Positions 16,010 through 46,512 of a stretch of DNA of 57,125 bases are shown here, one piece after another. Below the pieces are notes generated by a model that worked only from the letters and a program-made list of their open reading frames with translations, was not told the origin of the DNA and did not search any database. The stretch comes from Lactiplantibacillus garii. Its GTDB lineage: Bacteria; Bacillota; Bacilli; Lactobacillales; Lactobacillaceae. Numbering within the stretch: position 1 is the first letter of the stretch; each line of letters opens with the position of its first letter. The DNA is taken from NCBI RefSeq assembly GCF_003885105.1, contig NZ_QWZQ01000019.1:1-57125 (forward strand). The letters are read 5' to 3'. A program made the position numbers and the translations under genes.

Positions 16010-16025
16010 TTTGCCACTCCTAGCT

Positions 16026-16068
16026 AAAAATTAATGTGTCGGTCGTCACTTTCAGCGACAACAACACA
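16026..16068 (-). terminator. Terminator-like attenuator ahead of oppA-type gene
   Basis: Minus strand: TGTGT (16068-16064), one T, GTTGTCGCT (16062-16054), loop GAA, AGTGACGAC (16050-16042), CG, ACACA (16039-16035), then TTAATTTTT. The 14 pairs include two G-U. The three TGT codons of the leader peptide form part of the left arm. Confidence 0.6.
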
Positions 16069-16138
16069 TTTTTGGAAGGCCCCCGTTATCCATGATTGAG
16101 CGCAAATACGCGGATTGTTGTTTTCGTTGCTTGTTCAT
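16052..16138 (-). CDS. Putative polycysteine leader peptide upstream of oppA-type gene
   Basis: 28 codons, ATG to TGA, too short for usual gene callers. It begins MNKQRKQQSAYL and ends LPKMCCCR. GGGAGGC (16147-16153) lies eight nt before the ATG, a good Shine-Dalgarno. Three consecutive TGT codons stand just before the end and overlap the left arm of a terminator-like hairpin. Seen: the ORF, RBS and hairpin. Known: polycysteine leader ORFs act as cysteine-sensing attenuators in mycobacteria, and similar logic serves Trp and His operons. Inferred: ribosomes stalling for Cys-tRNA would block the hairpin and let transcription reach the peptide-binding receptor gene. Confidence 0.6.
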   Translation of the reverse strand: MNKQRKQQSAYLRSIMDNGGLPKMCCCR

Positions 16139-16213
16139 AGCTCAACGCCTCCCTAATTTTTAACCAGGGCCACCACTCAAAAATTAGAAAATAATGGCTT
16201 TTTGGTTAATCTT

Positions 16214-16242
16214 AGGTTAGTCCAGTGGTTTACAGTTGTCAA
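16214..16242 (-). promoter_or_regulatory. Promoter of the leader-oppA unit
   Basis: Minus strand TTGACA (16237-16242), 17-bp spacer, TAACCT (16214-16219); start expected near 16207, ~70 nt before the leader peptide. Confidence 0.7.
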
Positions 16243-46221: not shown

Positions 46222-46512
46222 TTCAGATTAAAAACCGTGATGAGGAACGGTGCTAGGTTTGTTAGTCAGCGAGCTGCGGGTTGGTGTAAGGCAGTCAAAA
46301 CAACTTGGTACGGATCACCTTGGAGTTGCGCCCCGAAGATTATTTTGGAGAAGGCGTTGGATGGTACCCATTAGTGTACCGGCGTATCACATCCCAGTGG
46401 GGTGCCGTACGTGCTAAGGTGTCTGCTGTGAAGTAGATACGAATAAAGGTGGTAACCCGTTAAAAACGTCCTTTAATTAACTCGCTTGAGTTAGTTAAAG
46501 GACGTTTTTTTA
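46212..46512 (+). ncRNA. T-box leader RNA, probably isoleucine-responsive
   Basis: Conserved AAAGGTGGTAACCCG T-box (46445-46459). Stem I shows GTGATGAGGA and CACCTTGGAG. An antiterminator can form (AAAGG 46445-46449 with CCTTT 46470-46474), and a perfect 12-bp terminator stem (46465-46476 / 46495-46506) is followed by T7. The triplet before ACCTTGG is ATC (Ile). The UGGU bulge predicts a tRNA with discriminator A, which fits Ile and argues against Asp. What it controls is reduced to a 35-codon ORF. Confidence 0.88.

Follow-up and report, generated by a model that had tools for sequence, protein, structure and literature searches.

The oppA locus and its leader region

The window, a stretch of 57,125 nucleotides from Lactiplantibacillus garii, carries on its minus strand a proA-like ORF (17640-16390) and oppA, with the leader elements between them (Table 1). 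The neighbours of oppA were read by eye as proB, proA and a HAD-type hydrolase, and no permease or ATPase gene was present among the neighbours seen. NCBIfam OppA-type models match the window oppA, but below their cutoffs.

Table 1. Features of the oppA leader region in the window.
Feature	Position	Strand	Basis
Promoter: -35 TTGACA (16242-16237), 17-nt spacer, -10 TAACCT (16219-16214)	16214..16242	-	Sequence
Segment b (GCCCUGGUUAAAAAUUAG), directly 5' of the leader SD and sharing its first base; partner of segment c	16153..16170	-	Duplex computation
Leader Shine-Dalgarno (SD) GGGAGG	16148..16153	-	Sequence
Leader ORF, 28 codons, MNKQRKQQSAYLRSIMDNGGLPKMCCCR and stop	16052..16138	-	ORF list; counterparts in 7 further species; similar to C26 residues ~32-45
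Conserved peptide core DNGGLPKMCC	16061..16090	-	Codon comparison of 8 leaders
Three tandem Cys codons (TGT TGT TGT), hairpin left arm	16058..16066	-	Sequence, folding
Terminator-like hairpin of 17 pairs with a GAA loop and a single bulge	16033..16070	-	Folding
U-rich tract AAUUUUU (DNA AATTTTT) 3' of hairpin	16026..16032	-	Sequence
Segment c (UUAAUUUUUAGCUAGGAGU), covering the U-tract and the oppA SD; pairs with segment b	16016..16034	-	Folding, duplex computation
oppA, lone family-5 oligopeptide-binding lipoprotein, 541 aa	14384..16009	-	PF00496, 8.6e-75

The promoter proposed in a first-pass annotation of the window is present, and counterparts were found at the equivalent place in 19/19 orthologous loci, with oppA either alone or behind the C26 gene described below (own pattern, no null). 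A consensus scan of the window listed neither the leader promoter nor the leader terminator, and the terminator call thus rests on folding. The promoter also contains GACAnnTGTA, which we take to resemble a cop box; a copper-box reading was dropped, as this motif is absent from two of the other leader species (G011, G020) and from most C26 species.

The 28-codon ORF with a ribosome-binding site that the same annotation had placed ahead of oppA was confirmed. It ends in …DNGGLPKMCCCR before the stop codon, and its SD lies 9 nt 5' of the ATG. The predicted -10 element is 75 nt from the start codon and, as an SD is present, the leader is not leaderless. As in attenuators of the trp/his type, the gene follows a short leader ORF that is SD-led and carries its regulatory codons in tandem. 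The three TGT codons lie in the left arm of the hairpin as claimed, but end 48 nt before the oppA ATG rather than the approximately 40 nt given. The combination is rare in the window: CCC occurs in 2 of the 843 ORFs of 15-50 aa; eight such ORFs have an SD-like motif and lie no more than 150 nt ahead of an ORF of at least 150 aa, and of these the leader alone contains CC. At the nucleotide level, TGYTGYTGY proved common and uninformative as a search motif, with 211 occurrences in the window genome (G000) compared to 319 for the reversed control.

A further pairing was noted within the leader. The stretch GGGGGCCUUCC (16084-16074), taken from the Gly-Gly-Leu-Pro codons, can pair with the leader SD region GGGAGGC (16153-16147), and the same pairing is visible by eye in G000, G011 and G020. 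Self-control of leader translation by this pairing is possible.

Conservation of the leader peptide

OppA orthologues of 78-100% identity were identified in 19 of the 21 genomes of the genus; the remaining two (G006 and G014) gave OppA matches of 43% or less only. A leader ORF is present at eight of the 19 orthologous loci (the window genome, G007, G010, G011, G012, G015, G016 and G020), always between proA and oppA. The peptides share the core [DH]NGGLPxM[CG]C, while their starts and tails vary freely among species. Aligning the orthologous regions for conserved Cys codons, as the first-pass annotation had suggested, bore the codons out, with the leader kept in eight species and tandem Cys codons after the core Met in seven. 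The exception is G020, in which Gly-Cys stands in place of Cys-Cys, giving a single core Cys. Two Cys follow the Met in G011, and G010 has two after the Met plus two more near the end.

Over the nine fixed core codons (position x excluded), the 28 pairs of leaders showed 93 synonymous versus 14 nonsynonymous differences, all 14 of which trace to two leaders, G007 with His for Asp and G020 with Gly for Cys. Over the ten codons that precede the core, nonsynonymous exceeded synonymous differences in 7/9 within-group pairs. These counts are descriptive, as the pairs are not independent. At the level of sequence comparison, the core NGGLPxM is conserved beyond the needs of codon counting. Such a peptide-level constraint, unneeded for attenuation by codon counting, would fit an arrest peptide, in which stalling would be caused by the nascent NGGLPxMCC chain as well as by the Cys codons, upon a signal such as Cys-tRNA, a thiol or a metal. 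However, the core appears to be inherited from a C26 gene (see below), so its conservation may partly be history, and we regard an arrest peptide as unlikely. The peptide could also be the product itself, acting as a signal or binding metal and being recognised by the adjoining OppA, since a peptide gene here adjoins a peptide receptor and carries a Met-Cys-Cys motif. With no secretion signal apparent by eye and with ends that vary freely among species, this is very improbable.

The distribution of the core was narrow. DNGGLPxM occurs in 8/397 genomes of the family, all of this genus, seven occurrences being the leader and the eighth falling within the G005 C26 gene; with the backward control pattern there were none. 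Poly-Cys leaders were found by motif before 0/19 OppA-like genes of other genera, including a 67% orthologue (L174). A search of genome contigs with the relaxed pattern NGG-[FLIMV]-PxMCC returned 14 stretches, three of them the leader; the other 11 were judged by eye to be unlike the leader outside the motif. Near-identical short frames ending in MISNGGLPCMCCCCR, likewise unlike the leader outside the motif, were observed in a Chloroflexi MAG (L066) and a Desulfuromonadaceae MAG (L070).

Hairpin, U-tract and long-range pairing

In the window, the hairpin stretch folds at -19.6 kcal/mol (z -6.18), with 0/200 shuffles as stable, and the whole 263-nt leader gives a z of -3.92, with 1/200 shuffles as stable. 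The U-run begins two bases 3' of the stem. The hairpin and U-rich tract described in the first-pass annotation were therefore recovered, with 17 pairs and one bulge in place of the 14 pairs stated.

The hairpin is convincing in only 2/8 orthologues, G000 and G007. In the other six leaders its z ranges from -0.7 to -2.9 (G011 -1.5, G020 -1.95, G012 -2.1, G016 -2.9, G015 -0.7, G010 -1.6). A U-tract with a weaker stem is present in G011 and G020, a stem without a U-tract in G012 and G016, and the fold is poor in G015 and G010; the U-tract is absent in four of the eight (G010, G012, G015 and G016). Because hairpin and U-tract vary between the leader species, the constant part of the element, on sequence evidence, is the peptide core with its Cys codons and not the terminator. 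The pattern named beforehand as speaking against the attenuator, a hairpin kept where the ORF or its Cys codons are lost, was not seen; ORF and Cys codons persist, and it is the hairpin and U-tract that vary.

A long-range helix between segments b and c (helix b:c), joining the region before the leader SD to the U-tract and oppA SD, is present in the minimum-energy fold of the window leader. The duplex has an energy of -18.7 kcal/mol in G000 and of -14.8 to -20.6 kcal/mol across all four orthologues with a U-tract, with 7 (G000), 1 (G007), 16 (G011) and 2 (G020) of 500 shuffles as stable. One of its pairs reads U-A in G000 and G007, U-G in G011 and C-G in G020 (by eye), in a comparison of four sequences, too few for a covariation test. 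The helix was not found in the four leader orthologues without a U-tract. An earlier proposal of a second layer of pairing is thereby upheld for the contact with the U-tract region, while the accompanying pairing does not form in that fold, although 16187-16178 and 16163-16153 look complementary by eye. No classical antiterminator competing for the left arm of the hairpin appeared in the folds made; the alternative helix that was found pairs the U-tract and not the left arm.

Helix b:c bears on whether the leader might act on translation instead, with its own translation opening or closing the oppA ribosome-binding site (by helix b:c in one species group) and stalling at Cys codons altering oppA translation. 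Its presence in 4/4 U-tract orthologues, with the U-A, U-G and C-G series at one pair, would agree with this, as would the four species that lack a U-tract though the leader core is kept. Yet a strong hairpin plus U-tract stands in G000 and G007, and the helix was not found in the four orthologues whose need for it would be greatest. We consider control of translation in place of transcription somewhat unlikely.

Apparent origin from a Peptidase_C26-type gene

In the other 11 orthologous species, the next gene upstream of oppA is a whole Peptidase_C26/class-I amidotransferase gene. The copy in G005 matches PF07722 (9e-67), and its best NCBIfam name, gamma-glutamyl-gamma-aminobutyrate hydrolase, falls below cutoff. 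All eight leaders align best to C26 residues ~32-45 (YLRSITDNGGLPLM in G005), the score being reached by 0/2000 shuffles in six leaders, 1/2000 in G016 and 42/2000 in G007. The C26 proteins read are without Cys at the positions where all eight leaders have it. By these alignments, the leader core is apparently a remnant of a Peptidase_C26-type gene.

Such an origin raises the question of whether the ORF is functionless, decaying C26 scrap ahead of an ordinary 5'-UTR stem. Derivation from C26 would agree with decay, as would the strong differences among species in the N-terminal half, the C-terminal tail and the hairpin. Decay does not account for core codon changes that are mostly synonymous beside neighbouring codons with mostly nonsynonymous ones, nor for Cys codons, missing from the C26 proteins read, that are present in 8/8 leaders and tandem in seven. 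We therefore judge functionless scrap to be quite unlikely.

Loss of C26 from the leader genomes was ruled out, as 8/8 keep one full-length match elsewhere; the leader is therefore a second, truncated copy. The six elsewhere loci that were read lie beside thi-like genes, with oppA not adjacent, and gave no Rfam T-box match at E<=0.01. On these findings, it is most likely that oppA, with its promoter and the front part of a C26 copy, moved to the proA locus and that the C26 copy was truncated there. In the OppA tree, a single branch (84/99) divides the leader group from the C26 group, and G007 stands next to it with zero length; the topology is rooted at the midpoint and has 8/18 inner forks open. 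TPP riboswitches were observed before thiamine-type genes near six of the C26-oppA operons (L047, L049, L051, L054, L055 and L058).

A T-box at the sister loci

T-boxes respond to uncharged tRNA. The Rfam T-box (RF00230) was matched in six of the ten C26-oppA loci scanned at E<=0.01 (L044, L046, L047, L049, L051 and L053), with E values of 1.3e-10 to 2.4e-16, all below the Rfam gathering score. L054, L055, L057 and L058 gave no match at E<=0.01, with traces visible by eye in some, and the eleventh locus, L056, gave none at the gathering score, the only threshold used for it. The specifier region of the five aligned T-boxes reads GAA-G-AUG. At the equivalent position, the window genome's T-boxes ahead of genes read as trpS, glyQ and metA carry UGG, GGC and AUG, respectively, and on this calibration the C26-oppA specifier is read as AUG, the methionine type. 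Met T-boxes of L. plantarum are described in the accessible part of PMC2494555.

L. modestisalitolerans (G007, L045) has both devices, with the T-box (61.8 bits, E 4.5e-11) first and the Cys leader between it and oppA. The other seven leader loci, the window locus (L061) included, gave no T-box match at E<=0.1, nor did the window leader at the gathering score; a T-box reading of the window leader was accordingly rejected. The window element shares promoter and operon with the sister-species T-box but differs in its sensor, a translated ORF. From the C26 remnant and the two devices of G007, we infer that T-box and C26 came first and the Cys leader later.

Poly-Cys leaders on the cysteine operon

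In G005, G010, G012 and G015, a cysteine-synthase/cystathionine-synthase-like gene forms an operon with a PF01053 gene and a cysE-like gene; it is named cbs-cblB-cysE here after PMC7645587 and is also known as cysK2-ctl1-cysE2. Each of these four loci (L076-L079) has a poly-Cys leader of its own by eye, for example MTQLTSNALNNCCCRTARLLRCSAC followed by a stop, ahead of a GC-rich inverted repeat with a T-run (by eye), and Rfam gave no match at gathering score at these leaders.

A search with the first gene of the operon (E<=1e-90) found it in 38/161 genomes of the family, in 12/40 genera, and in neither the six own-genus genomes of that draw nor the window genome. Within 600 nt upstream, 38/38 loci (30/30 plus 8/8; L136-L173) have a short ORF that contains CC and three or more Cys, compared with 6/38 (6/30 plus 0/8) in the reverse-strand control; together with the four read by eye, poly-Cys leaders precede cbs at 42/42 loci. 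The second operon gene follows cbs in 35/38 loci, and a cysE-like gene lies within the fetched flank in 24/38. A stem before a T-run was found between leader and cbs in 38/38 (best-window search, no null), and the leader ends 85-138 nt before cbs in 35/38. These peptides are unrelated in sequence to the oppA leader. The two types are alike in being poly-Cys, in being mostly SD-led for cbs, in the downstream stem and T-run and in their family, Lactobacillaceae; they differ in the peptide, and the cbs type is spread over 12 genera besides this one.

The accessible text of PMC6004538 describes the cbs-cblB-cysE operon (there cysK2-ctl1-cysE2) as rising without cysteine in L. paracasei, with a predicted terminator and high read coverage in its 5'-UTR, and calls the mechanism 'yet to be discovered'. 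The poly-Cys leaders would, if the reading is true, be a candidate answer to that open mechanism of cysteine control. In L. plantarum at pH 5, 25 genes were raised according to the portion of PMC7645587 available. Its Table 1 gives log2 values of +1.75 for lp_0018 ('oligopeptide ABC transporter'), +3.18 for cysE, +3.69 for cblB and +3.45 for cbs, and also holds lp_0783, a further oligopeptide gene, beside genes of the pyrimidine, copper and cell-wall groups. By gene order, lp_0018 is probably this oppA, which in G010 comes after proA as number 17 of the listed ORFs, counted from the origin side. Its induction under acid stress may have causes other than cysteine. The lp_0018 protein also rises with a quorum-sensing molecule, and cysteine is not mentioned in the accessible part of that report (PMC6459948).

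Proposed mechanism and related systems

Taken together, the window element is probably a cysteine-responsive leader-peptide attenuator of oppA, with an ORF built from a truncated Peptidase_C26-type copy. The cysteine response put forward in the first-pass annotation gains from the retention of the leader in eight species with a Cys tandem in seven, from the poly-Cys leaders on the cysteine operon and from the co-induction of lp_0018 with cysE-cblB-cbs; it loses from a hairpin that is convincing in only two of the eight and a U-tract absent in four. For the window species itself, the attenuator reading is likely.

With sufficient Cys-tRNA, the ribosome would translate the three Cys codons and release at the UGA in the hairpin top, after which the hairpin would form and RNA polymerase would stop at the U-tract, short of oppA. 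A shortage of Cys-tRNA would leave the ribosome stalled on the UGU codons and covering the left arm of the hairpin, so that transcription would run into oppA and peptide uptake would rise. Occlusion by the ribosome is assumed here instead of a classical antiterminator. The geometry in G000 and G007 fits direct occlusion, as a ribosome held at the first of the UGU codons would sit over the left arm; since the stop codon is at the hairpin top, a ribosome at the stop could also block the hairpin. A translational layer may be added by helix b:c, which links the RBS region of the leader to the U-tract and the RBS region of oppA.

More tentatively, it is possible that the NGGLPxM fragment gained Cys codons to become a combined Cys-codon and nascent-chain switch, took oppA over from the methionine T-box and forms part of a wider Lactobacillaceae regulon of cysteine leader peptides. 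If true, the genus would hold a living-intermediate example of a Met T-box replaced by a Cys leader peptide and a new sensor made from a gene fragment, and the lone OppA would be suggested to supply sulfur amino acids.

Going by the title of a 2020 report from Canestrari et al., leaderless polycysteine ORFs of mycobacteria reportedly act as cysteine-responsive operon attenuators. By that title they are like the window leader in being short polycysteine ORFs with this role, and unlike it in being leaderless; the window leader is SD-led, belongs to Lactobacillaceae, has an intrinsic hairpin, stands before a transporter gene and is derived from an enzyme gene.

The accessible text of PMC1262725 describes Cys leader ORFs ahead of the cys operons of Mycobacterium and P. 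acnes and of cbs of B. longum. Like the window leader, they are short ORFs with consecutive Cys codons close to the stop, and they stand upstream of sulfur genes; they differ in phylum (Actinobacteria), and that text reports no conserved terminator hairpin for them. The uORFC-8-2 motif before cysS in Rhodobacterales has, in the part of PMC8632094 available, a stem that holds a tandem pair of Cys codons, together with a U-run fitting an intrinsic terminator, like the window, at another gene and in another phylum. A literature search, with most subscription papers outside its scope, found no description of Cys leaders in lactobacilli, whether of the cbs leaders there or of a wider cysteine leader-peptide regulon. 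Among related hisS genes, control switches from T-box to His leader peptide or back (PMC2965389), much as it would at oppA here, with neither an intermediate nor a gene-remnant origin described in the accessible passages, unlike the case of oppA.

Elsewhere in the window, a further T-box (74 bits, below the gathering score) was observed at 46228-46476 on the plus strand, with the specifier region GAA-G-AUU, followed by an ORF that reads like a hydratase by eye.
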